From the IMG/VR virus record IMGVR_UViG_3300047564_006189, positions 1-64,000 of that record: 64,000 bases of DNA; one strand, given 5' to 3'. Both the position numbers and the translations under genes were made by a program. The stretch's first letter is position 1; each line of letters begins with the position of its first letter. Origin of the DNA: a virus. Shown here one piece after another: positions 19,797 through 64,000 of this stretch. A model generated the notes under the pieces. The model was not told the origin of the DNA and did no database searches. It saw nothing but the letters and a program-made list of their open reading frames with translations.

Positions 19797-19802
19797 ATTA
19801 TA
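19797..19802 (-). promoter_or_regulatory. Extended -10 promoter candidate before the CobT-like gene
   Basis: Minus-strand TGTGATATAAT overlaps the last codons of the gene at 19798. The extended -10 (TGnTATAAT) matches the early-promoter pattern of the window. The -35 is weak (TTGGAC at 20 nt). Confidence 0.4.
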
Positions 19803-20130
19803 TCACACACGTTGAGCTATGTGTCCAAGCCAAATTTTTGTTGATCATTTTTGAAAGATGAACTGCGATTCCGACTGGGTCGAATCCTCTTTGTTTTTCT
19901 TTGCCATATTCCCTTGTTACGGAGAGCCAAAGTTCTTCACCGCCTTTACCGCCAAAGACGTTGCCATTTTCAAAATCTTCACACTCCAACATCATTTGTT
20001 CAACACACTGCTTTACTACTAATCTGCAAAATTCATTAACTGCTTCTACGTCTTTCGAATCTGGTTCATTGAGGTAAAGATGATAATCAAGACCTGCTTC
20101 ACACGCAAGCTTCAAGATCAAATCATTCAT
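19798..20130 (-). CDS. FAELIVxxC-family small protein, long variant
   Basis: A 110-residue protein beginning MNDLILKLACEAGL with 'VNEFCRLVVKQCVEQM' in the centre. These match the start and core of the small-protein family that fills this array. The C-terminal third differs from the usual HFGVEE ending, so it may have a fused or replaced tail. Its start overlaps the upstream gene's stop (ATGA). Function unknown. Confidence 0.6.
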   Translation of the reverse strand: MNDLILKLACEAGLDYHLYLNEPDSKDVEAVNEFCRLVVKQCVEQMMLECEDFENGNVFGGKGGEELWLSVTREYGKEKQRGFDPVGIAVHLSKMINKNLAWTHSSTCVI

Positions 20131-20363
20131 GGCAGTTTAATTCCTAGTGTGTCGGGGCTGTAATCAATCCAGCGTTTATCTCCATCCTCATAGAGATATG
20201 CATCGTCATCGCATATTTGGAACATGAGAGCATAAAGCTCAATGTCATACTCTTTACACATTGAAAGCTTCACTTCATCATACACCCTAACTTTGAATTT
20301 TCCATCACCAGCATACACAAGGCTGCACCACCGGCCATTGGCATTTTCTGTCTTCAACTTCAT
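20127..20363 (-). CDS. Small hypothetical phage protein
   Basis: A 78-residue protein starting MKLKTENANGRWCSLVYAGD. It appears to be a compact alpha/beta protein with many aromatic and acidic residues. It is linked by 4-nt overlaps to genes on both sides, so it is part of a co-translated early operon. Family not recognised. Confidence 0.55.
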   Translation of the reverse strand: MKLKTENANGRWCSLVYAGDGKFKVRVYDEVKLSMCKEYDIELYALMFQICDDDAYLYEDGDKRWIDYSPDTLGIKLP

Positions 20364-20593
20364 TCTCCTTTATCAATAACGGCCGCAGACAATTGTGCCA
20401 CACTGTTCCTAATTCCTAATATTGAATTTCGGTGCTCAATAACTTCTTCTGTTTCATTCAAGATATTATCGGCCACGCACCACGCACCAACGTATTCAAT
20501 CTGGCCACGCCCTGCTTTTACGCCAAGCGCGACTGCTTGCGCAAGCAAATCCCTTAAAGAGATTTTATCGTCAATAATTCTATTTTCAATCAT
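20360..20593 (-). CDS. Small hypothetical phage protein
   Basis: A 77-residue, mostly helical protein (MIENRIIDDKISLRDLLAQA...). It is the first gene after a promoter candidate and overlaps the next gene by 4 nt. Family not recognised. Confidence 0.55.
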   Translation of the reverse strand: MIENRIIDDKISLRDLLAQAVALGVKAGRGQIEYVGAWCVADNILNETEEVIEHRNSILGIRNSVAQLSAAVIDKGE

Positions 20594-20637
20594 GGGCAGT
20601 CTCCATAATCAAGTTACATGACTTAACATATCATGAT

Positions 20638-20665
20638 TGTATATCAGAAACTAATTCTTGTACAC
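20638..20665 (-). promoter_or_regulatory. Early promoter candidate
   Basis: Minus-strand GTGTAC, 16-nt spacer, then TATACA preceded by TGA (extended -10 form TGnTATACA). It lies about 45 nt before the gene starting at 20593, in a 117-nt gap that has no other feature. Confidence 0.45.
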
Positions 20666-20710
20666 TGCCTATTGTTTCGAATGTGGTAAAATCACACGTG
20701 TTGCGAGGCG

Positions 20711-20989
20711 TTACGCCCCTACGCCCAATGAATCACTGTCGTCGTGCCGATCATCATAGATTGTAAAAGAGAAGCCATAACCTGCTAAGGCCAGCCACAC
20801 CGAAAGCCGTGGGGCATGATTGCCCTTGATTGCGGCTTCTACTTCAATCATAGATACAATTTCAGTGTCTTTGAATAGAACTAATTCCCAATGTTTGTGT
20901 GATACCGGCAGTGACCCGTTATAATCACGCTGTTTGAAGTCATACTTATTTGAAAATGGATTCGTAATTGTTAAATTAAATTTTAACAT
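20711..20989 (-). CDS. Small hypothetical phage protein
   Basis: A 92-residue protein starting MLKFNLTITNPFSNKYDFK. It contains 'HKHWELVLFKDTEIVSMIEVEA' and 'LSVWLALAGYGFSFTIYDDR', a pattern suggesting a small beta-sheet protein. I do not recognise a characterised family. The ribosome site is AAGG. Confidence 0.55.
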   Translation of the reverse strand: MLKFNLTITNPFSNKYDFKQRDYNGSLPVSHKHWELVLFKDTEIVSMIEVEAAIKGNHAPRLSVWLALAGYGFSFTIYDDRHDDSDSLGVGA

Positions 20990-21038
20990 TATTTCGCCTT
21001 CGTTAAATAATGATATTTTTGGTTGTTTCTAACTGAGC

Positions 21039-21281
21039 TTAATACGGTCTAGGACCTGGCCAAGGTCCGGCCCGCCCTTTTGTGTAATAGTCCCATTCCT
21101 GCCTGTCCCACTGTTCATTGCGCATTTTTACCCAATCTGTGAATTCAATGTAATCAACATCTGATTTTGGGTCTTTATAACAATATGGATCATAGCTGCC
21201 GCACGTTTTTGCGTCTAACGTATCATGGTCTATCTCAAAAACCATGTTATTCGTGCAACATCTAACGAGCAATTTTCTCAT
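21039..21281 (-). CDS. Small hypothetical phage protein
   Basis: An 80-residue protein starting MRKLLVRCCTNNMVFEID. It has four cysteines and a Pro/Gly-rich end (GPWPGPRPY). Its start overlaps the stop of the gene at 21278 by 4 nt. Function unknown. Confidence 0.55.
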   Translation of the reverse strand: MRKLLVRCCTNNMVFEIDHDTLDAKTCGSYDPYCYKDPKSDVDYIEFTDWVKMRNEQWDRQEWDYYTKGRAGPWPGPRPY

Positions 21282-21550
21282 TCTTCGCTATCTTTAAGAC
21301 CAAAGTTTTTAATATGATATAGCGCATCTACTATGCCACCATTACAACCTTTAAGATATGCCTTGTTAACAGGATCTTGTTGTGCTTCAATCACCTCGTC
21401 ATCAATTAATTCTTGTCTGACCTGATTGTATATTTCAACAATCAGCAAATCAGCAATCCGTTCAGCAAAAGGCACGGGATTTCCAAATTCTGGGCTCACC
21501 ATAGGATCATCCCAGGCCTGTTCTGCAATTTTTCTAATTCGTTCATTCAT
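21278..21550 (-). CDS. FAELIVxxC-family small protein, divergent
   Basis: A 90-residue protein that begins MNERIRKIAEQAW like the family, then has 'FAERIADLLIVEIYNQVRQ' in the core position but lacks the usual cysteine. It ends 'NFGLKDSEE', a degenerate form of the HFGVEE tail. It overlaps both neighbours by 4 nt. Confidence 0.6.
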   Translation of the reverse strand: MNERIRKIAEQAWDDPMVSPEFGNPVPFAERIADLLIVEIYNQVRQELIDDEVIEAQQDPVNKAYLKGCNGGIVDALYHIKNFGLKDSEE

Positions 21551-21786
21551 TTTTCAACTCCAAAATGTTTTTTAATCTTATCACCAGCAAATTTAAACTC
21601 ATATCCACTGTAGCACTCACCGGCTGAGCAACGATAAACGATATCAGCGCATCGCTGAACGATCAATTCGGCAAACTTTTCCAAGTCAACGCCATCCTCG
21701 TTGTGTTTGTCTTTAGCAAAAAACATGCCAAACTTGTCATCAGTCATACCAGCCTGTTCTGCAAGTTCTTTAATTAATTCGTTCAT
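21547..21786 (-). CDS. FAELIVxxC-family small protein
   Basis: A 79-residue typical member: MNELIKELAEQAGM, then LEKFAELIVQRCADIVYRC, and the tail KIKKHFGVEK. This three-part layout (N-terminal helix, core helix with invariant Cys, C-terminal FGVEE) defines the family here. It sits between two other members with 4-nt overlaps. No function is known to me. Confidence 0.7.
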   Translation of the reverse strand: MNELIKELAEQAGMTDDKFGMFFAKDKHNEDGVDLEKFAELIVQRCADIVYRCSAGECYSGYEFKFAGDKIKKHFGVEK

Positions 21787-21992
21787 TCTTCAACTCCAAG
21801 ATAATCCTTCATGGCTTGATGAATCATATAACTCCTATCGGCTTTTTCCAAATTATATTGTCTGGCAAATTCAGCACATTCGCCAACAATCAACTCAGTG
21901 AATTTTAGGATAAATTCGTCAGTCAGTAGACCAGTATCATAGTCAGTGTATTCACCTGCACAGTTAGCAAGTTCTCTAATTCGTTTGTTCAT
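21783..21992 (-). CDS. FAELIVxxC-family small protein
   Basis: A 69-residue member: MNKRIRELANCAGEYTD, then FTELIVGECAEFARQY, and the tail DYLGVEE. I chose the ATG at 21992 because GGAG stands 6 nt upstream; the longer frame would need a TTG start. It overlaps the gene upstream by 4 nt. Confidence 0.7.
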   Translation of the reverse strand: MNKRIRELANCAGEYTDYDTGLLTDEFILKFTELIVGECAEFARQYNLEKADRSYMIHQAMKDYLGVEE

Positions 21993-22123
21993 TCGATGCT
22001 CCAAATATATGACGGCGGAAGCCCAGCAAGACTATTTCTAACCTGTTCGTAGGTGCCATATCGTTGAAAGTTATTGCTGGAATAACCATTCCAAACTCGC
22101 ACAGTCCAATTTCTTTCATTCAT
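21989..22123 (-). CDS. 44-aa small protein in the array
   Basis: Frame MNERNWTVRVWNGYSSNNFQ, ending WSIE with a stop that overlaps the next start (ATGA). It is preceded by GGTAGATCAAA. It resembles the 52-residue protein at 26712 (both start with a short 'RxVxVWN' segment and are aromatic-rich), which supports its being real. Confidence 0.5.
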   Translation of the reverse strand: MNERNWTVRVWNGYSSNNFQRYGTYEQVRNSLAGLPPSYIWSIE

Positions 22124-22139
22124 TTTGATCTACCCGCCG

Positions 22140-22649
<510 letters not shown>

Positions 22650-22666
<17 letters not shown>

Positions 22667-22727
22667 TTGTCTGCCCCTCCACTTTGGCAATGGCTGCGCC
22701 TGTAAGTTCAAATGTTTTGATTTTCAT
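22650..22727 (-). CDS. 25-aa DUF2591-like N-terminal fragment
   Basis: A 25-codon frame MKIKTFELTGAAIAKVEGQT... starts just after the DUF2591-like gene. It looks like the first residues of that family (MKIK..ELTGAAL...) joined to unrelated sequence, so it is probably a remnant of a second copy. It overlaps the start of the next gene. Confidence 0.35.
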
Positions 22728-23092
22728 TCCAGTCCCTCCGGTACATCTACTTCATCACCCAACTTTGATGCCACATAGCAGCGCATGGCGGCAATCAGTG
22801 GCGTCGGACCCCAATATTCGTAACCTGGCCCTTTGTATTGAATTGCCCACCACTTGCTGTTTAATACGTATCCAGGATCCGAACCAAGCTCCATGAACTC
22901 ACGCTCAATGATCGGTCCACCTTGAGACCAGTCGGTGGTGTAGTTGAAATCGCATAGACCAATCAAGCCGTACCCGCCTTTGCGGGGTGGCAGCATCTTC
23001 TCAGTGCGCGGGTCGTAGTCTGTGAACCCTTCACACGTTGCCACCAACCAGTTGATCTGGATGGAGGTTGCTTCACTTACTTTGATCTTCAT
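22724..23092 (-). CDS. DUF2591-like prophage protein
   Basis: A 122-residue protein: MKIKVSEATSIQINWLVATC, 'TDWSQGGPIIERE', 'GPTPLIAAMRCYVASKLGDE'. This pattern is characteristic of DUF2591 proteins in prophages and phages of Gammaproteobacteria and Betaproteobacteria; their function is unknown. It lies within a GC-rich island that interrupts the AT-rich small-gene array, so it looks acquired together with the next gene. Confidence 0.75.
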   Translation of the reverse strand: MKIKVSEATSIQINWLVATCEGFTDYDPRTEKMLPPRKGGYGLIGLCDFNYTTDWSQGGPIIEREFMELGSDPGYVLNSKWWAIQYKGPGYEYWGPTPLIAAMRCYVASKLGDEVDVPEGLE

Positions 23093-23153
23093 GCTTACCT
23101 CATTCGTTTCTGTTTGAGACAGTTCTCTGTTTCAAGTTTTTAAACGCGTTCGT

Positions 23154-23245
23154 TCATTCATGAACTCCAAAATGTTCTTCCACTTTAGCATCCAACACTA
23201 ATAAACACTTCACAGCTTGATCAAGACATCCGGCCTGGCCGTTGC
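23154..23245 (-). pseudogene. Remnant of a FAELIVxxC-family gene
   Basis: One frame reads ...AVKCLLVLDAKVEEHFGVHE then stop, matching the family's C-terminal signature, but it has no family-like N-terminus or start. The stop overlaps an ATG that opens 'MNER' (the usual family start), and that closes after five codons. This looks like the scar of one truncated member plus the stub of the next, next to the GC-rich cassette. Confidence 0.4.
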
Positions 23246-23356
23246 ACAAGTTCGTTCAACCCGACCTTCATACAAGTAAGGAACACGTTCGCAATAGCGT
23301 TTTGCCAGGATTCGAACGATAAACAATGGCAAAATTTCGGTCCACTTACTCAGCAT
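23210..23356 (-). CDS. 48-aa small protein
   Basis: Frame MLSKWTEILPLFIVRILAKRYCERV... has a good ribosome site (TAGGAGTTATCT). It has a short hydrophobic stretch followed by basic residues. It overlaps the family remnant in another frame. No family is recognised; it could be a fusion by-product of the decayed member. Confidence 0.4.
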   Translation of the reverse strand: MLSKWTEILPLFIVRILAKRYCERVPYLYEGRVERTCATARPDVLIKL

Positions 23357-23442
23357 AGATAACTCCTAGTTAGCACAAGTGCTGGGTTGATCTTGAATAG
23401 GTCCTTAAGACGCCATGCATACCATTCACGTGCAACTGACAT
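23350..23442 (-). CDS. Possible 30-aa peptide
   Basis: Frame MSVAREWYAWRLKDLFKINPA... ends 7 nt inside the next gene. The longer version of the frame would begin inside the promoter region, so I prefer the internal ATG. The ribosome site is weak. Confidence 0.25.
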   Translation of the reverse strand: MSVAREWYAWRLKDLFKINPALVLTRSYLC

Positions 23443-23470
23443 CTTCAGACAATTATTCAACAAGGCTATT

Positions 23471-23499
23471 GTAATACAAACGTGGCATATTGTATACAA
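23471..23499 (-). promoter_or_regulatory. Minus-strand promoter candidate in the divergent gap
   Basis: Minus-strand TTGTAT, 17-nt spacer, TATTAC. It points leftward from the gap between the leftward small genes and the rightward ADP-ribosyltransferase gene. The -10 is imperfect. Confidence 0.35.
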
Positions 23500-23574
23500 C
23501 TTATTACAATTAATTAATGACAGACATTTCAAGTCATGAAACTAGCCTTGTTCTACCATTCAGCCCGCCTGCTT

Positions 23575-23583
23575 TAATAAATA
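23575..23583 (+). promoter_or_regulatory. Late-promoter-like box on the plus strand (TAATAAATA)
   Basis: Plus-strand TAATAAATA lies 38 nt before the ATG of the ADP-ribosyltransferase-like gene. This is the same variant seen before the fibre genes on the minus strand. Confidence 0.4.
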
Positions 23584-23620
23584 GATCAACTTCTGAATTG
23601 ATTGGGGCATAAGCATAAAA

Positions 23621-24163
23621 ATGTTGTTATGTGAATTATTCGAAAGCAGTGAAACATGGTACCATGGTTCATCAGCGGAAATACAACAGTTCAATCTTGA
23701 TAGTGTTGGTAAACCTGGTGCGACAGATCAAGAAGGTCCTGGGATTTATCTGACAAGCTCAATCGAGGATGCGCTGCATTATGGCAAATTTATTCACGCC
23801 GTGAAAACAGTTAGAGCACCACGACTGGTTCCAGAGAAAAAATCTTTCACAACAGCAACAATTAAAAAGCTAATCGAGCTATCTCCAGATAAAGAAGAGG
23901 CGCTCCTGGGCTGGGATGAGAATCCAGTAACTGCTGCTTCTAAAGCATCAAGCGCGATCTACGATAGGTGGGGTCCTAATAACTTTCGTGAAATGCTTGA
24001 ACAAGTATGGTACGACTTTTACCTAGAAAGCCCAAAGGCATGGTTAGATATTTTAAGCAAAAATCTCAACTATGATGGTTTTGTTCTGCAAAGGACTGGA
24101 GTTAAACATTTCATCTGTTTTAATCCTGAGATTTTAGAAATTACTGAAGTGATTCAGTACTAA
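23621..24163 (+). CDS. Putative ADP-ribosyltransferase (ART, polyvalent type)
   Basis: A 180-residue protein and the only sizeable gene on the plus strand. The N-terminus has 'TWYHGSS' and 'GPGIYLTSSIEDALHYG', which fits the H and Y motifs of ADP-ribosyltransferases of the PARP-like/polyvalent-protein type. The C-terminus 'NYDGFVLQRTGVKHFICFNPEIL' matches their usual ending. Such enzymes use NAD+ to modify proteins, as the T4 Alt/Mod enzymes do to host RNA polymerase, although those belong to the R-S-E class. A takeover or defence role is inferred. The catalytic Glu cannot be assigned by eye. Confidence 0.6.
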   Translation: MLLCELFESSETWYHGSSAEIQQFNLDSVGKPGATDQEGPGIYLTSSIEDALHYGKFIHAVKTVRAPRLVPEKKSFTTATIKKLIELSPDKEEALLGWDENPVTAASKASSAIYDRWGPNNFREMLEQVWYDFYLESPKAWLDILSKNLNYDGFVLQRTGVKHFICFNPEILEITEVIQY

Positions 24164-24193
24164 CTTCAGCATCCAGTTATCTCAGGAATCTTG

Positions 24194-24475
24194 TCATTTA
24201 TCATCACTCAACGCAAGTAAAACTTTCCCGTTGAGACGGGCCCTGGCAGACCTGGCATATTCTGAGATGTTGCCGCATTTGTCTTCCCAGCGAAGCAAGC
24301 TGCGAGCGGTATAACCAATATCAAGTTTATTTTCGCAAGTGGCTTCTTGATTCAGAACACCATTCAGAAACACGCGAACATGATAAACGCCGTTGATGCA
24401 ACGAACAGTAACTTCATGCTCGCACTCGCCAACAATGCAACGTTGGATTCGGAGAATTTGTTTGTAGCGTTCCAT
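24194..24475 (-). CDS. Small hypothetical phage protein
   Basis: A 93-residue protein starting MERYKQILRIQRCIVGECEHE. It appears to be a small beta-rich domain ('YHVRVFLNGVLNQEATCENK') followed by a basic helix. It has its own sigma70-like promoter and a short leader that resembles that of the gene at 24902. Family not recognised. Confidence 0.55.
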   Translation of the reverse strand: MERYKQILRIQRCIVGECEHEVTVRCINGVYHVRVFLNGVLNQEATCENKLDIGYTARSLLRWEDKCGNISEYARSARARLNGKVLLALSDDK

Positions 24476-24508
24476 GATATCACCTGCAGCATGTCTTACG
24501 ATAGGATG

Positions 24509-24538
24509 ATTATATCAACAGCATGCTAATTTGTACAA
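24509..24538 (-). promoter_or_regulatory. Early sigma70-like promoter with duplicated leader
   Basis: Minus-strand TTGTAC, 18-nt spacer, TATAAT with extended TG. The 26 bases at 24494-24519, covering the -10 and the first transcribed bases, are identical to 24924-24949. Confidence 0.7.
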
Positions 24539-24551
24539 TACTTTCAAAAAT

Positions 24552-24902
24552 TTAGATCATCTCAAATTTGATCTGGAAACCAGCCTCTTCCAGAGCCTCC
24601 ATCCAATCGTTGAGCTTGGCGATATGTTCATCCGCTTCACATACGGTTTCAAATCCTACAGGTTCACCTTCACCGAAGATATCATCACCCGCAAAAACTG
24701 GTTCAACACGCTCTACGCGTCGATCTTGAATCCACTCGATGTACGCCTGCGCAGGGCAGGCTGCTGCAAGAATGCGCTCAGTTGTTTCGGTTGGAGTTTG
24801 CCAGGCATCGAACTTGCGGCGCTGAATCTCATTACCACGGCTACCATCTTTCTTGATGAATGCAATCTCGCGTTCTGCCACGATGAAGACGTTCATGCTC
24901 AT
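24552..24902 (-). CDS. Small hypothetical phage protein
   Basis: A 116-residue acidic protein starting MSMNVFIVAEREIAF. GGAG stands 8 nt before the ATG, and a near-consensus promoter lies upstream. A longer frame on the opposite strand is a shadow. Family not recognised. Confidence 0.6.
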   Translation of the reverse strand: MSMNVFIVAEREIAFIKKDGSRGNEIQRRKFDAWQTPTETTERILAAACPAQAYIEWIQDRRVERVEPVFAGDDIFGEGEPVGFETVCEADEHIAKLNDWMEALEEAGFQIKFEMI

Positions 24903-24938
24903 GATATCAACTCCTACAGAATTTCTTACGATAGGATG

Positions 24939-24967
24939 ATTATATCAACTTGTGCTGAGGTTGTAAA
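24939..24967 (-). promoter_or_regulatory. Early sigma70-like promoter with duplicated leader
   Basis: Minus-strand TTTACA, 17-nt spacer, TATAAT (extended TG). It shares 26 identical bases (24924-24949) with the promoter 430 nt downstream, so the two promoter-leader units are duplicates. Confidence 0.75.
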
Positions 24968-24973
24968 CTAGTT

Positions 24974-25186
24974 TTATTCTTCAACGCCAAAATATCTTTC
25001 AATCTGTTCAATCAATTTAGGTCGACTAACAAACTCACCGCCAGCACCGACAATATCAATACATTTCTCAACAATCAATTCTGCAAATTTTTCTGCCACC
25101 TGCAAGTTGGTTGTTGAGAAGCCATACTCTTGTCCTGCGTTCAGCAGCGCAGCTTCATACATCTCCTGGAGTTCTTGCTTCTTCAT
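24974..25186 (-). CDS. FAELIVxxC-family small protein
   Basis: A 70-residue member: MKKQELQEMYEAALLNAGQE, core AEKFAELIVEKCIDIVG, tail IERYFGVEE. The gene upstream overlaps it by 4 nt (ATGA). Confidence 0.7.
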   Translation of the reverse strand: MKKQELQEMYEAALLNAGQEYGFSTTNLQVAEKFAELIVEKCIDIVGAGGEFVSRPKLIEQIERYFGVEE

Positions 25187-25362
25187 TCAATATTCCCTTT
25201 TAGATCTAGCAATTTATTTAAAATTGCAGCATCCCACGGATTGCCCTTACATATGGCGTAAATTTGTTCAATACGCTCGGTCGAAACATTAGGATCCAAT
25301 TCTCTAATTAGCTCTTCCGCAATCGCAAAGTTGAATGCTTCTTGCAGCTCATCATTCAACAT
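25183..25362 (-). CDS. 59-aa small protein
   Basis: Frame MLNDELQEAFNFAIAEELIRE..., a helical acidic protein. Its stop overlaps the next start (ATGA) and its start overlaps the end of the Pth2-like gene. This tight packing supports it as a real gene. Family unknown. Confidence 0.5.
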   Translation of the reverse strand: MLNDELQEAFNFAIAEELIRELDPNVSTERIEQIYAICKGNPWDAAILNKLLDLKGNIE

Positions 25363-25675
25363 ATTTTGGCTTCCAAAGTTTGGCGTATTTTAATACATTA
25401 GGTTGTTCGCCCTCAATTGGGCAGATTACTGCGCAACTCTTTTTGGCATCTAATGTTTTATTTTCATGTCCAAGATAAACATTAGGTAATGCTGCAATTT
25501 TATCAAATTCTTTTTGATTTACTCGCACTACACATTTACGAAAAGATTCTGTCAGCCAGCGTTGATAAATTTCAATGTGCTCAAATGCTAGATGGGCACC
25601 TAACATAGTATGCGCCACCAGCGTCGGTGTCATATAATCTGGGAACTCGTCAAGAACTGCAATATACAAACGCAT
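25352..25675 (-). CDS. Peptidyl-tRNA hydrolase 2-like protein
   Basis: A 107-residue protein: MRLYIAVLDEFPDYMTPTLV, 'AHTMLGAHLAF', 'RKCVVRVNQKEFDKIA', 'SCAVICPIEG'. The order of a leading beta strand, an A-x-H-A-like helix and a later hydrophobic strand resembles the Pth2 fold found in archaea, eukaryotes and some T4-like phages. If active it would recycle peptidyl-tRNA. The match is by overall pattern only. The start was chosen for AGGG 8 nt upstream. Confidence 0.45.
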   Translation of the reverse strand: MRLYIAVLDEFPDYMTPTLVAHTMLGAHLAFEHIEIYQRWLTESFRKCVVRVNQKEFDKIAALPNVYLGHENKTLDAKKSCAVICPIEGEQPNVLKYAKLWKPKYVE

Positions 25676-25730
25676 ACATGTCACCCTAAAAAGATTTCAA
25701 AACAGTTATTTGATTATCAAAAATCCGCAA

Positions 25731-26261
25731 TCAATCAACTTGTTTGTTGGTCTTATTTTTAATTCTATCTACTTCTTCTTGAAGAATTTTTTCAACGTAC
25801 TGATTCAGAGTCATATCGCTCTCATGTGCCAACGTCATAAGTTTAAAAATTTCATCATCTTCTAATTCAAGCGGAAGTTTAACCCGAGTATCATATTTTT
25901 CACCAGAAATAATGGCCCGAGTCTTTTCTAAAAAATCCTCTTCTACTTCCAGCTCAATGTAGTCAACGCCATCCCATGCTTCATGCATATTAACAGCATG
26001 GTGTTCAGCTTCAGCTTGATGAGCAGTTAAGTATGCTGGATTGATTAGCCGGTATGCTCTTTCTTCTTTATAATCATGTATTGCCGCTTCATAAATTTCT
26101 TGCGTGACAGTGTCAAATACGACACACGCTGAATGGCCGTCTTGCTCATTATTCCAATAGTCAAGATAATGCGCATTTCCACCATAACATGCCCATTGAT
26201 ATGGGCCGGCTTCTGTGATTTTATAGCCGATAGCTTCCATGAAATCTTTCATTGTGATCAT
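25731..26261 (-). CDS. Hypothetical protein with ribbon-helix-helix-like C-terminus
   Basis: A 176-residue protein. The N-terminal two-thirds is unrecognised and rich in His, Tyr and Glu. The last ~50 residues ('VKLPLELEDDEIFKLMTLAH', 'TLNQYVEKILQEEV') resemble an Arc/MetJ-type ribbon-helix-helix. Such domains bind DNA or mediate dimerisation. The start overlaps the upstream gene (ATGA), with GGTGGAG 7 nt upstream. Confidence 0.55.
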   Translation of the reverse strand: MITMKDFMEAIGYKITEAGPYQWACYGGNAHYLDYWNNEQDGHSACVVFDTVTQEIYEAAIHDYKEERAYRLINPAYLTAHQAEAEHHAVNMHEAWDGVDYIELEVEEDFLEKTRAIISGEKYDTRVKLPLELEDDEIFKLMTLAHESDMTLNQYVEKILQEEVDRIKNKTNKQVD

Positions 26262-26500
26262 AATATAGCTCCACCATTATTTGCAAATTCAACAATATTT
26301 TTGACTTTTCGATCTGACCAACCAGCACCAACTGATGCCCATTTACCTTTTTCCCAAAGTTGCCAACTATCACGTTTTTGCCAACATTCTTCTGGGTGAT
26401 CAACTGCTTTATTATAATACAAATCTGTTGAGAGTTTATAAAATAACGTATTGCCGTAAAACTCGGCAAAATGTGTTGCATCTTCTGGCGCTTTTGTCAT
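26258..26500 (-). CDS. Small hypothetical phage protein
   Basis: An 80-residue protein starting MTKAPEDATHFAEFYGNTLF, Trp- and Lys-rich (KRDSWQLWEKGKWASVGAGW). Overlaps of 4 nt with both neighbours indicate co-translation. Proteins with this 'PEDATHF...W' style are common in phage accessory regions. Function unknown. Confidence 0.55.
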   Translation of the reverse strand: MTKAPEDATHFAEFYGNTLFYKLSTDLYYNKAVDHPEECWQKRDSWQLWEKGKWASVGAGWSDRKVKNIVEFANNGGAIL

Positions 26501-26712
26501 AATTTGAAATGATCTTTTATATTGTTCACTACATTTTTAACAACTTGCTCTTGGCTTGGCGCCACAGCCCAACGTGTTTCTTTAGCTTCTTCGGCAAGCC
26601 CAATACACTTCATAATAATCAGCTCTGCGAATTTTTGAAAGTCACCATGACTATTTGGCCAACCAGTCAGCAATCTGGCTTCAGTTGCAAGTTGTTTAAT
26701 TTCCTGATTCAT
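26497..26712 (-). CDS. FAELIVxxC-family small protein
   Basis: A 71-residue member: MNQEIKQLATEARLL, core FQKFAELIIMKCIGLAEEA, tail IKDHFKL (FGVEE lost). Two adjacent ATG codons compete; GGAG stands 6 nt before the second, which I use. Confidence 0.65.
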   Translation of the reverse strand: MNQEIKQLATEARLLTGWPNSHGDFQKFAELIIMKCIGLAEEAKETRWAVAPSQEQVVKNVVNNIKDHFKL

Positions 26713-26870
26713 CATGGTCTCCATTCCAGTTTGATACAACCATAACCTTGTCGTTTTGCCCGCCACATCTTGTACATGGCTTTAATCATACTCTCACCAC
26801 AATAGACTTGCAACCAATGATAGCCATCATCGGAATGATTCCACACGTTTACTTCGAATCGCCAACCCAT
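26712..26870 (-). CDS. 52-aa small protein in the array
   Basis: Frame MGWRFEVNVWNHSDDGYHWL, ending KLEWRP. The start overlaps the upstream stop (TAATG) and the stop overlaps the next start. It resembles the 44-residue protein at 21989, and both sit directly before a FAELIVxxC gene. A conserved gene pair is likely. Confidence 0.55.
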   Translation of the reverse strand: MGWRFEVNVWNHSDDGYHWLQVYCGESMIKAMYKMWRAKRQGYGCIKLEWRP

Positions 26871-27067
26871 TATTCAACTCCAAAATAACTTTTTAAGTAA
26901 TATATTACGTAATCAATATCATCACCTTCACGATAGGCGATATCTACACAATGCTGAACGATTAATTGCACAAATTCTTGGACTTCAGCGCGTTGCGCTT
27001 CCCCAGCTGTGTAAAAATTCCAAATAAGTGGTTTTTGCTGAACGAGCTGTTCAATTCTGTCGTTCAT
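26870..27067 (-). CDS. FAELIVxxC-family small protein
   Basis: A 65-residue member: MNDRIEQLVQQKPLIWN, core VQEFVQLIVQHCVDIAYR, tail LKSYFGVE. The upstream gene overlaps its first codons by 17 nt. Confidence 0.7.
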   Translation of the reverse strand: MNDRIEQLVQQKPLIWNFYTAGEAQRAEVQEFVQLIVQHCVDIAYREGDDIDYVIYYLKSYFGVE

Positions 27068-27194
27068 TTTTTAATTCCTGACTTAATTCTTCAATTCTTT
27101 CAGCGGCCATAAGCAATAACATTGAAAGCGCAATATTATCCCCAACGCTTTCTTTTGCGATCTTTAATGTGCGGATAAGATCTTCATCACTCAT
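27051..27194 (-). CDS. 47-aa small protein
   Basis: Frame MSDEDLIRTLKIAKESVGDN, helical, with 'LLLMAAERIEELSQEL' near the end. The start overlaps the upstream stop (ATGA) and the end overlaps the next gene. Unknown function. Confidence 0.5.
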   Translation of the reverse strand: MSDEDLIRTLKIAKESVGDNIALSMLLLMAAERIEELSQELKNERQN

Positions 27195-27400
27195 TTTATG
27201 CCCATTGCCATTTTATATAATTGCAATTCACTAGTAGGGACCCATTCTTCATATGTGCCAAAGCTTCGCAAAAATGAGTGATTAGATAAATCAGTTTCAG
27301 GAGTGACTTTCACCATAGAAACTTGTACAGCAATACCATTCCCATTTTCATCGGTCCTTGGACCTCTCAACAAGACATATTCGGTGCCATTCTTTTGCAT
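27191..27400 (-). CDS. Small hypothetical phage protein
   Basis: A 69-residue, probably beta-rich protein (MQKNGTEYVLLRGPRTDENG, 'YEEWVPTSELQLYK'). The 'W(V/I)P.S.L' ending is reminiscent of small SH3-like phage proteins. Not assigned to a family. Confidence 0.55.
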   Translation of the reverse strand: MQKNGTEYVLLRGPRTDENGNGIAVQVSMVKVTPETDLSNHSFLRSFGTYEEWVPTSELQLYKMAMGIK

Positions 27401-27402
27401 TT

Positions 27403-27600
27403 TTAACTCCTATCGTTGATTCCAAAATGTTCAAACATGGAATCCATCACTTCATATTCTCCATGTTTATCAGCAATGCTAATACATTGGCGAACTACCA
27501 GTTCGGTTAATTTTTCAATTAACTCTAAATTTCCGCCCATATAATTATACGGGTTTAATCCGGCTTCCTTAGCTAATTCCATAACAAGCTGTGAATTCAT
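27403..27600 (-). CDS. FAELIVxxC-family small protein
   Basis: A 65-residue member: MNSQLVMELAKEAGLNP, core IEKLTELVVRQCISIADK, tail MFEHFGINDRS. Core and tail are slightly diverged. Downstream of the gene at 27604 with a 3-nt gap. Confidence 0.65.
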   Translation of the reverse strand: MNSQLVMELAKEAGLNPYNYMGGNLELIEKLTELVVRQCISIADKHGEYEVMDSMFEHFGINDRS

Positions 27601-27603
27601 GCT

Positions 27604-27810
27604 TCACCTATCTTCAAGAATGTCTACAGATTTTACAAGCTGCTCACGTGAATCTTCTTGCTGGACATCTTGATATTCCTTTGAAATTGACCGAACTGGA
27701 ATACCATTGTCCAATTGTTGCTTGATGAATACACATGCATCAGAATAATTTAAAAATGCTTGGCGACTATAAGGAACATTTCCATAATGAACCATGTATT
27801 GTTTTTTCAT
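27604..27810 (-). CDS. Small hypothetical phage protein
   Basis: A 68-residue protein starting MKKQYMVHYGNVPYSRQAFL. Compact and mixed in composition, with no recognised motif. It is packed between array genes. Confidence 0.5.
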   Translation of the reverse strand: MKKQYMVHYGNVPYSRQAFLNYSDACVFIKQQLDNGIPVRSISKEYQDVQQEDSREQLVKSVDILEDR

Positions 27811-27819
27811 GTTGATCCC

Positions 27820-27993
27820 TTAAGTAAAAGATTTAGCAAGCGTAATTGCATCTTCTAATGAAGCACATGTTTTGCAGAACCTCTCTTCTCCACCATACTG
27901 AAGAATTTCATAAACCGCATATAGGCCATCTTCATTTTCGTAAACGAGCCCATATGATTCTTCACCATACGAGTATTCATAAACTAGTTTCAT
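27820..27993 (-). CDS. Small hypothetical phage protein
   Basis: A 57-residue acidic protein (MKLVYEYSYGEESYGLVYEN), Tyr-rich. The start was chosen for AGGA 7-8 nt upstream; a longer frame lacks its own ribosome site. Unknown function. Confidence 0.5.
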   Translation of the reverse strand: MKLVYEYSYGEESYGLVYENEDGLYAVYEILQYGGEERFCKTCASLEDAITLAKSFT

Positions 27994-28004
27994 TTTAATT
28001 CCTA

Positions 28005-28187
28005 TCATTCTATATCAAAATGTGCTTTTAGGTAATCAACATTGTCGCCATTTCGGGCTGCAACATCGATGCATTCCTGCACGATTATTTCAATGACCGC
28101 GCGCACTGTAGCATCAGAAACCACGCCAGGGTCAGCAAACCATGGCCTAACTTGGGCTTGCTTTATCAGATCGCTATAGTCAGTCAT
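28005..28187 (-). CDS. FAELIVxxC-family small protein, first gene of its operon
   Basis: A 60-residue member: 'DLIKQAQVRPWF' start, core AVIEIIVQECIDVAARNGDN, tail LKAHFDIE. It directly follows a near-perfect sigma70-type promoter and has GGAG before the ATG, so it heads the leftward early operon. Confidence 0.65.
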   Translation of the reverse strand: MTDYSDLIKQAQVRPWFADPGVVSDATVRAVIEIIVQECIDVAARNGDNVDYLKAHFDIE

Positions 28188-28217: not shown

Positions 28218-28246
28218 ATTATAACATTAGATTAGCAAATTGTAAA
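28218..28246 (-). promoter_or_regulatory. Strong early sigma70-like promoter
   Basis: Minus-strand TTTACA, 17-nt spacer, TATAAT preceded by TG (extended -10). It lies 31 nt before the ATG at 28187. Confidence 0.8.
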
Positions 28247-28254
28247 CAACTGTG

Positions 28255-29634
28255 TCAACATAATTTATCAAGAAATTCACTGATCATGGGCAAAGGCCTG
28301 CCAGTGGAGCTCGATCCTGACCAGCTTGTTCCGGCAATATCCAAATGGCACCAACCAGTTTCTGGTGCAAACTTTTGCAAAAACACTGCTCCTTGCGTAG
28401 CACCTGCACCTCTACCTGGGGCCAAATTACAAACATCGGCAACATTGCTTTTTAGAAAATCCTTATGGCATTCTTCAAGCGGTAGTTGCCAAGCCCAATC
28501 TTTTGTGGCCTTGCTGGCAGCGAGCAACTTTGTCACGAGTTCATCATCTTTAGAGAACACGCCAGTATGGGTATAACCTAATGCGGTAATGCAGGCTCCA
28601 GTAAGAGTGGCCAGGTCAATTGTGTATTTTCCGTTGAATCGTTTTGAGTATGTTAATGCGTCAGCCAACACCAAGCGACCTTCAGCATCGGTGTCAATAA
28701 CTTCAATTGTGGTGCCGTCCATCGCGGTTAATACGTCGCCTGGCTTGACGCTGCCCCCGCTTGGCATATTTTCACAGCAAGCAGCAATTGCAACCATGCT
28801 AATTGGCAGTCCTGCCTTAGCCGCATAAATCACTGAACATAAAGCAGTTGCTGCTCCAGCCATGTCAGATTTCATTTCATGCATGCCACCACTTGGCTTG
28901 ATGCTAATCCCACCACTGTCAAACGTCAATCCCTTACCAACCATCACGATTGGGTTATCTACTTTTGGGCCATAGCGTAAGACGATAAGTTTAGGTTCTT
29001 CAACACTGCCCTTGGCCACCCCGTAAAATGATCCCATTTTTTGCTCAAGAATATAATCAACGCCAAACACTTCACATTTGATTTTCAGATTATTTTCCTG
29101 AATATATTCTTGCACCAATTCTGCAAATTTTGATGGTGTCAAATAGTTTGGTGGCATATTAACTAGTTGTCTAACGAATGCGCGAGCTTCAGCTAAGGCC
29201 TGCCCGCGCTTGGTACTAAACTTTTTTGGCTTATTAACTACAAATTCAATTGTCTTGCGCGCCGGTGATTCTTCTTTCTTCTTAAGATTCCAATCAACTT
29301 GCAGGTTTAAAAGAGTTCGGCTAACAAGCGTTTTGTCATTAAACTTGTAAGCACCCAAGTTAACTGTAACTTCCAACACGGATTCTGGCATAGCCATGAT
29401 TGCGCCGATAATTGATGTTTCAACATCACCCGCATCAACACAGACAAAAACCGTAAATTCTCCTTTAACCATACTCATGAATGTGCCGCCAACTTTTTTA
29501 GGCAGCAGCGAATGCCATTTTTTATGGCTATCCAAAATAACTGAATCATCTTTAATCTGATAAGGAACAACTACCGCCCCGCTTAGACTTTGTTTATTGA
29601 CAAACTTTACCATTGGAAAGTTAAAATCAAACAT
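28255..29634 (-). CDS. Leucyl aminopeptidase (M17 family)
   Basis: A 459-residue two-metal aminopeptidase that removes N-terminal residues from peptides. All family ligands and catalytic residues are visible: Lys234 and Asp239 in 'GKGLTFDSGG', Lys246, Asp257 in 'KSDMAGAA', and Asp315, Glu317 and Arg320 in 'DTDAEGRLVLADAL'. Length is slightly below the usual ~480-500, with a shortened N-terminal domain. GGGAG lies 8 nt before the ATG. M17 peptidases are rarely described in phages, so this is an auxiliary gene. Peptide recycling during infection or regulation (as with PepA DNA binding) are both possible. Confidence 0.92.
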   Translation of the reverse strand: MFDFNFPMVKFVNKQSLSGAVVVPYQIKDDSVILDSHKKWHSLLPKKVGGTFMSMVKGEFTVFVCVDAGDVETSIIGAIMAMPESVLEVTVNLGAYKFNDKTLVSRTLLNLQVDWNLKKKEESPARKTIEFVVNKPKKFSTKRGQALAEARAFVRQLVNMPPNYLTPSKFAELVQEYIQENNLKIKCEVFGVDYILEQKMGSFYGVAKGSVEEPKLIVLRYGPKVDNPIVMVGKGLTFDSGGISIKPSGGMHEMKSDMAGAATALCSVIYAAKAGLPISMVAIAACCENMPSGGSVKPGDVLTAMDGTTIEVIDTDAEGRLVLADALTYSKRFNGKYTIDLATLTGACITALGYTHTGVFSKDDELVTKLLAASKATKDWAWQLPLEECHKDFLKSNVADVCNLAPGRGAGATQGAVFLQKFAPETGWCHLDIAGTSWSGSSSTGRPLPMISEFLDKLC

Positions 29635-31210: not shown

Positions 31211-32554
31211 TTAACGAGTATTTTTACTGCTGTCAAAGAATTGTTCATCTTCAGTGGAACCTTTCAGGGCAGCCGTTGAAGCTTCGCGTTCAATTGTAGT
31301 TGTTACTGCATCGAAGTAGCCAGTGCCAACTTCACGTTGGTGCTTGACCGCGGTGAAGCCTCTTTCAGCCGCCGCAAACTCTGCTTCTTGTAGCTCAACG
31401 AATGCCGTCATGTTTTGCCGAGCATACCCATGAGCCAAGTTGAACATTGAGTAGTTCAGGCTGTGGAAGCCTGCCAACGTGATGAACTGGAACTTATAAC
31501 CCATCGCACCAAGTTCGCGTTGGAATTTTGCGATTGTTGCCTCGTCAAGATTTCGCTTCCAGTTAAATGATGGTGAGCAGTTGTAAGACAACATCTTGCC
31601 TGGGAACTGCCGTTGAATTGCTTCAGCGAATCGTTTTGCAAATTCAAGATCTGGCTTACCGGTTTCACACCAAATTAAATCAGCATATGGTGCGTAGGCG
31701 AGGCCACGAGAAATTGACTGCTCCAAGCCAGGGCGAGTTTTGAAGAACCCTTCAACAGTACGCTCACCTGTCACGAATGGTTTATCGTTGTCATCGACAT
31801 CTGAAGTGACCAGATCAGCTGCTTCAGCATCAGTGCGCGCGATTAGGATGGTTGGCACGCCCATGACGTCAGCGGCCAGGCGAGCAGAAATCAACTTCGC
31901 AACAGCTTCACGAGTTGGAACCAGCACCTTACCGCCCATGTGCCCGCACTTCTTAACTGCGGCCAACTGATCTTCAAAGTGAACGCCCGAGGCGCCTGCT
32001 TCGATCATGGCCTTCATGAGTTCAAAAGCGTTAAGCACGCCGCCAAAACCAGCCTCGGCGTCGGCAACGATAGGTGCAAAATAATCTATATAATCAGCAT
32101 CACCTGGATTTTTACCTTCCATCCACTGAATTTGATCACAACGAGTCAGTGTGTTGTTGATGCGTTTAACAACAGCTGGTACTGAGTTAATCGGGTAGAG
32201 CGATTGATCAGGGTACATTTCGCCCGCGAGGTTTGCATCACCCGCGACTTGCCAGCCAGAAAGATAGATTGCCTTCAGTCCTGCTTTAACTTGTTGCATG
32301 GCTTGGTTGCCGGTTAAAGCGCCCAGGGCATTGACGAAGGGTTCAGTTGTAATTGAGTTCCAAAGACGTGTAGCACCTCTTTTGGCGAGAGTGTGCTCCA
32401 CTTGAACCGAGCCACGAAGTTTTACTACATCTTCAGCAGTGTAACCGCGTTTGATGCCGAGCCAGCGTTGATTTTCTGCCCACTCTCGTTGAAGTTGCTG
32501 TATTTCGCGCTCGCGACTTTCGCGCTCGCGCAGCTGCGCAAAAATATGTTCCAT
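31211..32554 (-). CDS. aceA: Isocitrate lyase, full length
   Basis: A 447-residue enzyme that splits isocitrate into succinate and glyoxylate, the first step of the glyoxylate shunt. The catalytic loop KKCGH is at 201-205 (Cys203); 2-methylisocitrate lyases have KRCGH instead, so this is a true isocitrate lyase. '[10 protein letters not shown]' (99-108), '[10 protein letters not shown]' (239-248) and 'NCSPSFNW' (325-332) are intact. The C-terminal '[11 protein letters not shown]' is the normal bacterial ending. TAGGAG precedes the ATG. Terminators on both sides make it a single-gene unit. The two stretches I counted are GC-richer than phage neighbours (33/60 and 29/60). No malate synthase is in the window. 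Confidence 0.96.
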
Positions 32555-49209: not shown

Positions 49210-49212
49210 GAT

Positions 49213-57900: not shown

Positions 57901-58185
57901 TTATTCAGACAAGTCGTCATCTGTACCCAGAAACGCCTTCAAGAGATGCTTGCCAACTTCTTGATTACCTGAAACCGCTGCGGCGTATATGGCGCATTCG
58001 CGCACTAGTACTTCAGCTAAAGTTTCGAGTCGTTTGTCCATGACATCCATCGGCATCACATACATTCTGGTTATTTTTTCCGTTTCTGTGGCGTTAAGAG
58101 GTTCGCCGCTGGCAAGTTTACTTGAGGCGCCATATTCTACGAAGCCCGCGCCATGAATAATTGCAGTAACTATTTGATTCTTCAT
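57901..58185 (-). CDS. FAELIVxxC-family-like small protein, long variant
   Basis: A 94-residue protein. A family-like core 'LETLAEVLVRECAIYAAAVS' and tail 'LLKAFLGTDDD' follow an unrelated 50-residue N-terminus (MKNQIVTAIIHGAGFVEYG). Probably a distant member with an added domain. First gene after the topoisomerase region. Confidence 0.5.
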   Translation of the reverse strand: MKNQIVTAIIHGAGFVEYGASSKLASGEPLNATETEKITRMYVMPMDVMDKRLETLAEVLVRECAIYAAAVSGNQEVGKHLLKAFLGTDDDLSE

Positions 58186-60740: not shown

Positions 60741-60962
60741 TTACATTTTAAGATTAAAGGCCTTCGACAAATGTTCAGCTAAATGAATTCTATCCTGAAC
60801 CACGTCAGAAGATTTTATAGGACATTTGGTGAGCTCTTCCATGCATTCCAATATGATCAACTTAGCAAATTTAGTATGATCGAAATAGCTAGGTAACATT
60901 CTTCCATTTACCTCAACCACCTCGATAGAATAACTGACTAGTTGATCAAGCCTTTCATTCAT
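60741..60962 (-). CDS. FAELIVxxC-family small protein
   Basis: A 73-residue member: MNERLDQLVSYSIEVVE, core HTKFAKLIILECMEELTK, tail LSKAFNLKM. The start at 60962 overlaps the stop of the 56-residue gene upstream (ATGA); a longer frame starting at 61025 is unlikely. Confidence 0.65.
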   Translation of the reverse strand: MNERLDQLVSYSIEVVEVNGRMLPSYFDHTKFAKLIILECMEELTKCPIKSSDVVQDRIHLAEHLSKAFNLKM

Positions 60963-61235: not shown

Positions 61236-61472
61236 TTAAATTCCAAATCGCCTACGGATTTTAGTAATACACTCGTCAACAGCCGTGACGGCCTCATCAT
61301 TAACGCCAAATGCCTCAATACCAACTAGAGAACACTCTGTTAAACATTCATACGCTATGATCTTTGTGAACTCGTCAAGCTGTTGTTTTGTCAAACACAA
61401 TTTTTGGCAATCATCTTTATGATAATCTGCGCCAATGTTAATTGCAGTTTCCCAATTTTTTCGGTAGATCAT
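61236..61472 (-). CDS. FAELIVxxC-family-like small protein
   Basis: A 78-residue protein with core 'LDEFTKIIAYECLTECSLVG' and tail 'TKIRRRFGI', matching the family at core and end but with a different N-terminus (MIYRKNWETAINIGADY). Start chosen at the ATG at 61472; the longer frame would use TTG. Confidence 0.55.
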   Translation of the reverse strand: MIYRKNWETAINIGADYHKDDCQKLCLTKQQLDEFTKIIAYECLTECSLVGIEAFGVNDEAVTAVDECITKIRRRFGI

Positions 61473-61524
61473 AGAATTCTCTATTATAAAAGACAAGTAA
61501 TTTGTCCATCCTTAATTTGTCCAA

Positions 61525-62354: not shown

Positions 62355-62570
62355 CTAGGCCATAAATTTTCGTCTAATTCGTGTTACCGTTTCAATGCTG
62401 GCACCACCTTTTGATGCCATCGAAGACGTTTCAAGAACAATTTGCTTTATAAGATTCATCAAACACTCGTCTGTAAATGTGTGTGTTAACGCCTTTGAAC
62501 CATCTTGCATTGATTGGACGCTATTATACAGTTCAGTTTGACTTACTAGTTTTTTGCAATATTCATTCAT
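62355..62570 (-). CDS. FAELIVxxC-family-like small protein, divergent
   Basis: A 71-residue protein: MNEYCKKLVSQTELYNS, core 'LMNLIKQIVLETSSMASKGG', tail 'RIRRKFMA'. The Cys of the core is lost. The start at 62570 fits GGAG and the 8-nt overlap with the upstream stop. Confidence 0.5.
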   Translation of the reverse strand: MNEYCKKLVSQTELYNSVQSMQDGSKALTHTFTDECLMNLIKQIVLETSSMASKGGASIETVTRIRRKFMA

Positions 62571-62745
62571 GTCGTTCTCCGCCGCGCTGATCGACAAATT
62601 TAATATTGCCTGTCATAGATTGGACAGCCGATTTAACAGCTTGACTGAATTTATATTTTCTGCTTTGCGCTTGCACAGAATTAGTTGTGTTGAATTTATC
62701 CAGAATTGACGTGTGGATTTTTTCAAGCGGAGAAGTTTGACACAT
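62563..62745 (-). CDS. 60-aa small protein
   Basis: Frame MCQTSPLEKIHTSILDKFNT, Ser/Lys/Gln-rich and polar. It is packed against the next gene by an 8-nt overlap. No family seen. Confidence 0.45.
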   Translation of the reverse strand: MCQTSPLEKIHTSILDKFNTTNSVQAQSRKYKFSQAVKSAVQSMTGNIKFVDQRGGERHE

Positions 62746-63108: not shown

Positions 63109-63516
63109 TTAGCGTGAATATTGCTGCAACACGTAATCAACAACCCGCTGCGTGTCTTTCTTAAACATGATAGACGCAATTTCTCCGTTGAAGGCCTTAT
63201 TGGGTGAACACCACCAACGAGAAACTTGCTCTTTTGAGCCTAACATGCTTAATAGAATAGTGTCAATTGCGTTTTTTGTTTTTTGGTCTTTCACAGAAAG
63301 CGCTCTGGCCACTGGCGTGCTGATGTCAAATACTTCTCTGATGTATTGCACTGCTGACTGTGTTTGCTCATCTTTTTTCTGCTCAAGGAGTATGTCACAG
63401 CAGTGATTAACAAGAAGCTGAGAATACCTCGTAAGTGCATCTTCATCCCAACTGTCTGGTACTCCGTCGCACAATAGTCCTGCTTCATACGCATACAATT
63501 CTAGAATTTTATTCAT
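63109..63516 (-). CDS. FAELIVxxC-family small protein, long variant
   Basis: A 135-residue protein. It starts like the family (MNKILELYAYEAGLL) with core 'LTRYSQLLVNHCCDILLEQK' and 'IREVFDIST' where the tail normally ends, then continues for ~70 residues of unrelated sequence. It looks like a family member fused to another domain. A start two codons upstream (63522) is also possible. Confidence 0.5.
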   Translation of the reverse strand: MNKILELYAYEAGLLCDGVPDSWDEDALTRYSQLLVNHCCDILLEQKKDEQTQSAVQYIREVFDISTPVARALSVKDQKTKNAIDTILLSMLGSKEQVSRWWCSPNKAFNGEIASIMFKKDTQRVVDYVLQQYSR

Positions 63517-63521
63517 GAACA

Positions 63522-63731
63522 TCACCACATCGTAGTAACAATTTCGATTCTTTTTTCAAGCATCGCTTTAGCGTATTCATAATTAGCTTGAGCCCAAACT
63601 GCAAAAAAAGCCGCCCGATTTTGGTCATTTGTTAGATCTGGCTCGCCTCCAAAAATTTTACAGACCATGTCAAAATCAACTGGCGAACTCTTAGCAAATT
63701 CATCATGTTTAGTAATCGGCTCATTTGACAT
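63522..63731 (-). CDS. Small hypothetical protein
   Basis: A 69-residue protein (MSNEPITKHDEFAKSSPVDF) with GGGAG before the chosen ATG. It overlaps the gene upstream by 11 nt. Family unknown. Confidence 0.5.
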   Translation of the reverse strand: MSNEPITKHDEFAKSSPVDFDMVCKIFGGEPDLTNDQNRAAFFAVWAQANYEYAKAMLEKRIEIVTTMW

Positions 63732-64000
63732 TTTTATCTCCCAAACCAAAATGGTTTTTAATTAAATCTGTGTATGTGCTAGCTGGTATTCGTTTAGCCA
63801 CCGCGTCATCAATGACATCAATGCATTGCTGAACAGTAAATTTCATAAATTTTTCCAACCCGGCGTTCGGCGGCAGCCATTCTCCATCCGGCGCTAGAGC
63901 AATTATAACATATTTGGTCTGATCTGGGAATTTAACTTGTGCCAATCCTGCCCTTTTTGCTAGGTCATCAACACCTTCAAATTTGTGCTCAATCAGCGTT
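63721..64000 (-). CDS. FAELIVxxC-family member, 5' end outside window
   Basis: The open frame runs to the right edge without a start: '...DDLAKRAGLAQVKF', core 'LEKFMKFTVQQCIDVIDDAV', tail 'IKNHFGLGDKNVK'. The family-like 'LAKRAG' before residue QVKF shows that the real start lies beyond the window, not at the internal TTG near 63945. Confidence 0.65.
   Translation of the reverse strand, partial: TLIEHKFEGVDDLAKRAGLAQVKFPDQTKYVIIALAPDGEWLPPNAGLEKFMKFTVQQCIDVIDDAVAKRIPASTYTDLIKNHFGLGDKNVK

Follow-up and report, generated by a model that had tools for sequence, protein, structure and literature searches.

Two variable modules are reassorted between conserved blocks in a family of small phage proteins

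The window analyzed here is a stretch of 64,000 nt that makes up nearly all of one 64,124-base viral record (IMG/VR virus record IMGVR_UViG_3300047564_006189, positions 1 to 64,000). It encodes an array of very small proteins with three shared sequence blocks, described in an initial annotation as an expanded family, and comparison with other phages showed that the two variable stretches between these blocks, here called the N-module and the C-module, are combined almost freely. Thirteen open reading frames (ORFs) in the window, all short and all on the minus strand, matched a hidden Markov model (HMM) profile trained solely on proteins from other phages or other contigs (E-values from 1e-23 to 2e-5), and reversed proteins gave no match below E 1e-3. 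The leave-window-out E-values and the null reversed control indicate that the three-block motif is real and not a chance resemblance. The HMM did not split the members, in agreement with the claim of a single expanded and diversified family. Nine members were found at 19.8-28.2 kb, where the initial annotation had counted at least eight. Of the further copies proposed for 57.9-64 kb, four were recovered at 60.7-64 kb, while the ORF starting at 57901 was borderline and the one at 62355 marginal.

Among 413 aligned members, conservation was concentrated in columns 1-13, 33-43, and 67-74, and columns 14-32 and 44-66 were variable. The order of the cassette is thus a head block (MNERIKELAxQA), the N-module of about 18 residues, a core block (EKFAELIVREC), the C-module of about 23 residues, and a tail block (IKxHF-GVEE), with the tail and head of neighboring members contiguous in the DNA. 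A typical member is a free-standing protein of about 75 residues (ORF length 66-113 aa, 5-95% range), and no fusion domains were found among the members. The proteins are acidic, with a median net charge of -6 in about 80 residues and a median isoelectric point (pI) of 4.9, and their modules contain, besides acidic residues, many aromatic residues and glycines. For each of two members, AlphaFold (AF2) predicted three main helices, one at the N-terminus, a long middle one that contains the core block, and one at the C-terminus (predicted local distance difference test scores, pLDDT, of 82 and 77). The core helix is amphipathic and conserved.

The members in the window were more divergent than those of many other phages (Table 1). 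All three blocks had been ascribed to the members, which is true of the family as a whole, but 19798 and 63109 lack the tail and the core of 21278 is changed. Linkage of the genes by ATGA overlaps was likewise found in part: members 21278, 21547, and 21783 overlap one another in this way, and the rest are interspersed with unrelated small genes. The decayed tail-head junction at about 23142-23185 is read as what is left of a member that was lost or truncated. Ten window members were scored as full-length, and in eight of these a module reached the clustering threshold with a relative; 26870 and 28005 did so with each other. The N-module of 21547, MTDDKFGMFFAKDKHNEDGVDL, was also found in 10 other loci with differing C-modules (cluster size 11), and the C-half of 21278 (..YLKGCNGGIVDALYHIKNFG..) recurred behind different N-halves in L012 and L023, where L numbers denote other loci used for comparison.

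Table 1. Family members and associated features in the 64,000-nt window
Position	Strand	Feature	Support
19798..20130	-	Divergent member of 110 aa with head and core; conserved tail missing	E=4e-7
21278..21550	-	Member, 90 aa	E=2.5e-8
21547..21786	-	Best member, 79 aa; ATGA overlap with next member	E=1e-23
21783..21992	-	Member, counted from internal ATG; tail with GGAGTTGAAGAATGA; C-module common to L130	E=9e-17
23142..23185 (about)	-	Decayed tail-head junction GAACATTTTGGAGTTCATGAATGAACGAACG.. (EHFGVHE / MNER-stop)	
24924..24967	-	Sigma70-like promoter (putative)	11/12, consensus match only
24974..25186	-	Member, 70 aa; C-module IDIVGAGGEFVSRPKLIEQ common to L015 and L038	E=4e-12
26497..26712	-	Member, counted from MNQEIKQL..; C-module (..ETRWAVAPSQEQ..) common to L142	E=4e-14
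26870..27067	-	Member, 65 aa; C-module like that of 28005; AF2 three helices	E=2e-13
27403..27600	-	Member, 65 aa; C-module common to L225	E=2e-11
28005..28187	-	Divergent member, 60 aa; first gene after promoter at 28246	E=2e-5
28218..28246	-	Sigma70-like extended -10 promoter (putative), TTTACA-17-TATAAT, ahead of array	11/12, consensus match only
57901..58185	-	Borderline member, core only	E=7e-4
60741..60962	-	Member, second group	E=4e-8
61236..61496	-	Divergent member	E=1e-5
62355..62597	-	Marginal, membership unproven	E=0.01
63109..63528	-	Divergent member, C-terminal extension	E=1.5e-6
63721..63999	-	Member at window edge; C-module (..REPASTY..) common to L053 and L158	E=9e-8

Analysis of 658 full-length members showed that the two modules are inherited almost separately. 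Pairs of proteins were scored on the variable stretches only, with a cut-off of at least 40, a value that none of the 20,000 reversed comparisons made for each module exceeded. By this measure 575 pairs shared an N-module and 505 shared a C-module, and 15 shared both. The other half of the protein was unrelated in 92-96% of the family pairs, versus 5-15% of the pairs in a control set of 5148 other small ORFs from the same contigs, divided with the same geometry. In that control the two halves were coupled in 62-78% of cases at a score of at least 40 and in 47-70% at a stricter threshold. The 658 members represented 644 distinct module combinations, and one cluster of 14 N-module relatives was joined to 13 different C partners. 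None of 1407 same-locus pairs shared both modules, so near-duplicate paralogs were absent within loci. Chao1 lower bounds were about 1026 N-modules and 779 C-modules. Some of the loci overlap or lie on near-identical contigs, and identical DNA was dropped before counting. The variable modules, which carry this result, played no part in the two large IMG/VR scans, which were keyed on the core and on the tail-head junction; a first small scan had used one member's own peptides. Interchange of modules between the N- and C-positions was also considered and gave 19 weak matches only. These data show that N- and C-modules are reassorted almost independently from a pool that is common across phages.

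Some of this exchange was recent. In L014 and L037, the DNA from where the core ends through to GTTGAAGAA, covering the C-module and tail, was 100% identical apart from a single silent difference (C/T) in the tail, and the N-modules and the downstream DNA were unrelated. There were 136 swap pairs in which the DNA of one module was at least 90% identical and the other module was unrelated, and these are mosaic in the sense applied to phage proteins, having a homologous segment in otherwise unrelated proteins with exchange at 90% identity or more. In these pairs identity remained at about 0.9 across the adjoining block and then fell to 0.28-0.3, which is the level of chance; recent swaps thus end inside block DNA. 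Most of the sampled locus pairs had only short matches outside the shared genes, the exception being L142/L156, with 7.5 kb at 99.96%. A fixed neighboring partner, as in toxin-antitoxin pairs, was not supported, because the DNA flanking shared modules drops to chance.

Modules common to different phages were compared at the codon level. The proportion of synonymous sites that differed (pS) was about 0.63 and that of nonsynonymous sites (pN) was 0.16-0.22, which gave a ratio of nonsynonymous to synonymous rates (dN/dS) of 0.13 for the N-module and 0.19 for the C-module; because the pairs were picked for similar protein sequences, pN is biased downward. Near-saturated synonymous sites together with a retained protein sequence cannot be neutral, and the modules are therefore protein-coding and under purifying selection. 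The blocks, in turn, are conserved beyond their protein sequence. Within loci, identical block residues used identical codons in 0.63-0.72 of cases versus 0.42-0.47 expected from locus codon usage, and codon preference could be opposite at different positions, as at Leu8 (CTT 231, TTG 27) and Leu38 (TTG 303, CTT 10). Position-specific codons were also seen at Glu3 (GAA) versus Glu37 (GAG) and at Lys6 (AAA) versus Lys34 (AAG). Block conservation is partly enriched by ascertainment, since the loci were found through the core and the tail-head junction. An internal GTG start at Val40 was rejected as the cause of codon conservation in the core because the Val40 codon varies (GTG 137, GTT 123, GTA 30, and GTC 29).

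The tail serves more than the protein. Its F-G-V-E-E codons read TTYGGAGTTGAAGA and are followed by an ATGA that overlaps the start of the next gene, which places GGAG at Shine-Dalgarno distance. Of 219 members preceded by another member, 176 had the sequence GGAGTTGA upstream, versus 39 of the 435 members without such a predecessor. Where an overlapping start codon was present, V73 was kept in 90% and E74 in 82% of members, versus 55% for both where no start was nearby, while retention of F71 was nearly constant (96% versus 91%). This pattern indicates that H-F is a feature of the protein and that GVEE in large part reflects a translation signal, in which the following gene has its ribosome-binding site and overlapping start. 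A view of the HFGVEE tail as wholly a protein motif, as in the initial annotation, is accordingly not supported. Rheinheimera phages match the tail DNA, yet the matched gene is unrelated to the family. In Rheinheimera phage Barba1A (L232:1279-1524), this cultured-phage gene ends in EHLGGEE because its 3' end is the ribosome-binding site (AGGAGGTGAAGAATGA) of the next gene.

The putative promoter at 24967 and another at 24537 have an identical 25-nt -10/leader sequence, TTGATATAATCATCCTATCGTAAGA, which occurs exactly at 24494-24518 and 24924-24948 on the minus strand with 0 expected by chance. This repeat is a possible promoter/stem-loop (PeSL)-like element, and neither copy is located at a module breakpoint. 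Only the consensus promoters suggest that the array is transcribed early.

The family had no convincing match when 40 diverse members were searched against Pfam, PHROGs, NCBIfam, and PADLOC, where at most one member matched any one family, with weak E-values. There was also no usable match among solved structures (best profile E=0.46 in the PDB; best Foldseek E 6.8-9). Motif and other literature searches yielded no description of the family, and the claim that it has no assigned function stood in the libraries and literature searched. Proteins of uncultured Caudovirales phages in BFVD/UniProt, such as A0A6J5LFX3 and A0A6J5PQ97, equal the members in size and resemble them in predicted fold (Foldseek probabilities of 0.99 and 0.96). 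They are unannotated, with no family or function given, and are probably family members. In several transitional proteins (L019:8338-8613, L022:8224-8648, L185:3147-3344, and L218:5648-5962), the head and N-module of the family are joined to an EREACAK core, and some of these proteins have an AIRARG-like end. Such forms may connect the family with another widespread family of small phage proteins (FAxLVxxxEREACAK), for which PHROGs has no family.

The family is present in at least hundreds of IMG/VR contigs. The protein scan gave at least 438 confirmed stretches and the exact 28-nt junction CATTTYGGAGTTGAAGAATGAACGAACG at least 120, both counts being lower bounds. Among the matches listed, copies per contig reached 18 (374-kb contig), 16 (46-kb), and 14 (28-kb), and many contigs show just one or two members. 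Cultured phages are nearly devoid of the family, the best tblastn match being one weak one in a spring-water phage genome. The T4-type capsid gp23 scored above its cut-off in 10 of 22 of these records and did not in several of 120-171 kb. The family thus probably occurs across phage lineages, with the caveat that some records could be incomplete. Seven matches among bacterial genomes, all in 3-9 kb contigs of metagenome-derived assemblies, are possibly phage DNA.

Other features of the window were also noted. Within the array are a plus-strand ORF (23621-24163) resembling ADP-ribosyltransferases (ART-PolyVal E=2.4e-5, under the Pfam cut-off; phrog_25279 E=3e-18) and, on the minus strand, a gene for a NinX-like protein (22724-23092; PF10765, E=8e-16). 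Directly upstream of the array is an M17 leucyl aminopeptidase gene (28255-29634, minus strand; PF00883, E=5e-109), and an isocitrate lyase-family protein (31211-32554, minus strand; PF00463, E=2e-102) may represent an auxiliary metabolic gene. At 49196-49890 there is a repeated CGFTRWKWTFKDLFCVRECVLWIF unit in the plus-strand frame, so the minus-strand ORF at 49213-49890 probably encodes a tandem-repeat protein.

The reading favored here, with moderate confidence, is that the family is a recombining repertoire of small helical proteins that probably bind host proteins early in infection, in takeover or counter-defence, and are refreshed by recombination. Homologous recombination in co-infected cells would swap either module or the whole gene, with the core (about 33 nt) and the tail-head junction (about 50 nt) as homology arms, and GGAG in the tail, together with the ATGA overlap, would allow any incoming cassette to be translated by coupling from the preceding gene. 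The variable modules would lie in loops and at the end of the core helix of the predicted three-helix protein, giving each protein a different partner, and the early-expressed set of binders would be kept as an assortment and renewed by recombination. Small size, diversity, the array setting, and selection together suggest module-specific binding of host targets, and the role in host takeover or defence proposed in the initial annotation is plausible. A broader proposal, made only tentatively, is that environmental phages draw on a worldwide pool of N-modules (at least about 1000) and C-modules (at least about 800), which recombine through the coding blocks into combinatorial micro-binders. 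Each phage would have its own set of up to about 18, directed at host or defence proteins, as a recombination-driven counterpart of a variable-region repertoire. Several points weigh against the favored reading. The confidence of the AF2 models is moderate and lowest in the N-module, the function is deduced without a homolog or structural match in the libraries searched, and purifying selection indicates that the modules matter but is not proof of host-protein binding. In addition, a DNA- or RNA-level signal unrelated to recombination could account for part of the codon conservation in the blocks.

The last point bears on an unlikely but substantial alternative, in which shuffling has no adaptive purpose. 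The blocks would be mobile translation-coupling or recombination sequences, a coding cousin of the PeSL cassettes of T4, with reassortment a by-product and one minor protein function common to all members. Conservation of block DNA beyond the protein is consistent with this, as is the presence of GGAGTTGAAGAATGAACGAACG before members whose upstream neighbor is an unrelated gene that ends in ..GVEE but lacks HF. However, the recurrence of modules across phages at saturated synonymous divergence and low dN/dS argues that module sequences matter, and F71 is kept whether or not a gene follows. It is improbable that the members of one phage co-assemble through their conserved helices into a particle or filament, with the modules setting the pairing: the amphipathic core helix and the many co-encoded members per phage would suit such hetero-oligomers, but many contigs have one or two members only and no linked neighbor gene accompanies shared modules. 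The net charge and low pI could also indicate acidic decoys, that is, DNA mimics or charge-based inhibitors of DNA-binding host enzymes. This is quite improbable, as the charge is moderate, the modules are also rich in aromatic and glycine residues, and solved structures gave no fold match. The expansion by copying and divergence envisaged in the initial annotation agrees with the shared blocks and the array layout, but ordinary duplication and divergence of one gene is hardly credible given the uncoupled modules, the lack of same-locus pairs sharing both, and identical C-module DNA next to unrelated N-modules. The diversity is instead reassortment of two modules.

Recombining repertoires of small binders, as favored here, can be compared with several known systems. 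HsdS, the specificity subunit of type I restriction enzymes, has two variable regions between conserved ones, and recombination within the latter can exchange either of the two. Its function is known, however, it is about five times larger than the family members, and there was no sign of a relation in sequence (no Pfam match). Diversity-generating retroelements use a template/variable repeat pair, adenine-specific changes, and a reverse transcriptase, whereas the present family replaces whole modules of about 20 residues rather than single sites; retroelement parts were not searched for. PeSL shuffling in T4-type phages is reportedly the subject of Arbiol 2010 and Comeau 2014. As far as the account cited here goes, promoter/stem-loop elements between the genes of T4-type phages mediate modular shuffling in which whole genes are moved (PMC4503421), and this is the nearest precedent for cassette shuffling. 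Both systems have short conserved repeats, thought to be recombination sites, in arrays of small phage genes. The difference is that the blocks of the present family are coding and one is intragenic, so that two modules of one protein of about 75 residues are exchanged separately, and a promoter with a stem-loop terminator between genes was not found at the shuffling sites, which are coding blocks. Domain mosaicism in phage proteins, as treated in the cited parts of Smug et al. 2023 (PMC10684548), was defined by shared fragments of at least 50 aa, with hotspots in tail fibres, endolysins, and polymerases, and a further reservoir was expected in proteins of unknown function. There too, recombination joins homologous to unrelated fragments in one protein, also across phage groups, but modules of about 20 aa would escape an approach that requires fragments of this length. 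Sub-domain modules in proteins of about 75 aa do not appear in the cited parts of the PeSL account (PMC4503421) or of Smug et al. 2023 (PMC10684548). The kind of process thus appears to be known, namely recombination-driven mosaicism, and what seems new is an unnamed family with sub-domain modules.

In many phages, small genes annotated without a function take up a large share of the genome, and where such genes come from has long been asked. The pattern described here is missed by annotation pipelines and by 50-aa fragment cut-offs, and the hundreds of matched natural swaps make the effect of a module on binding or toxicity directly testable. New combination of two modules of about 20 residues, at fixed DNA blocks that double as the ribosome-binding site of the next gene, is a way in which many such genes arise.

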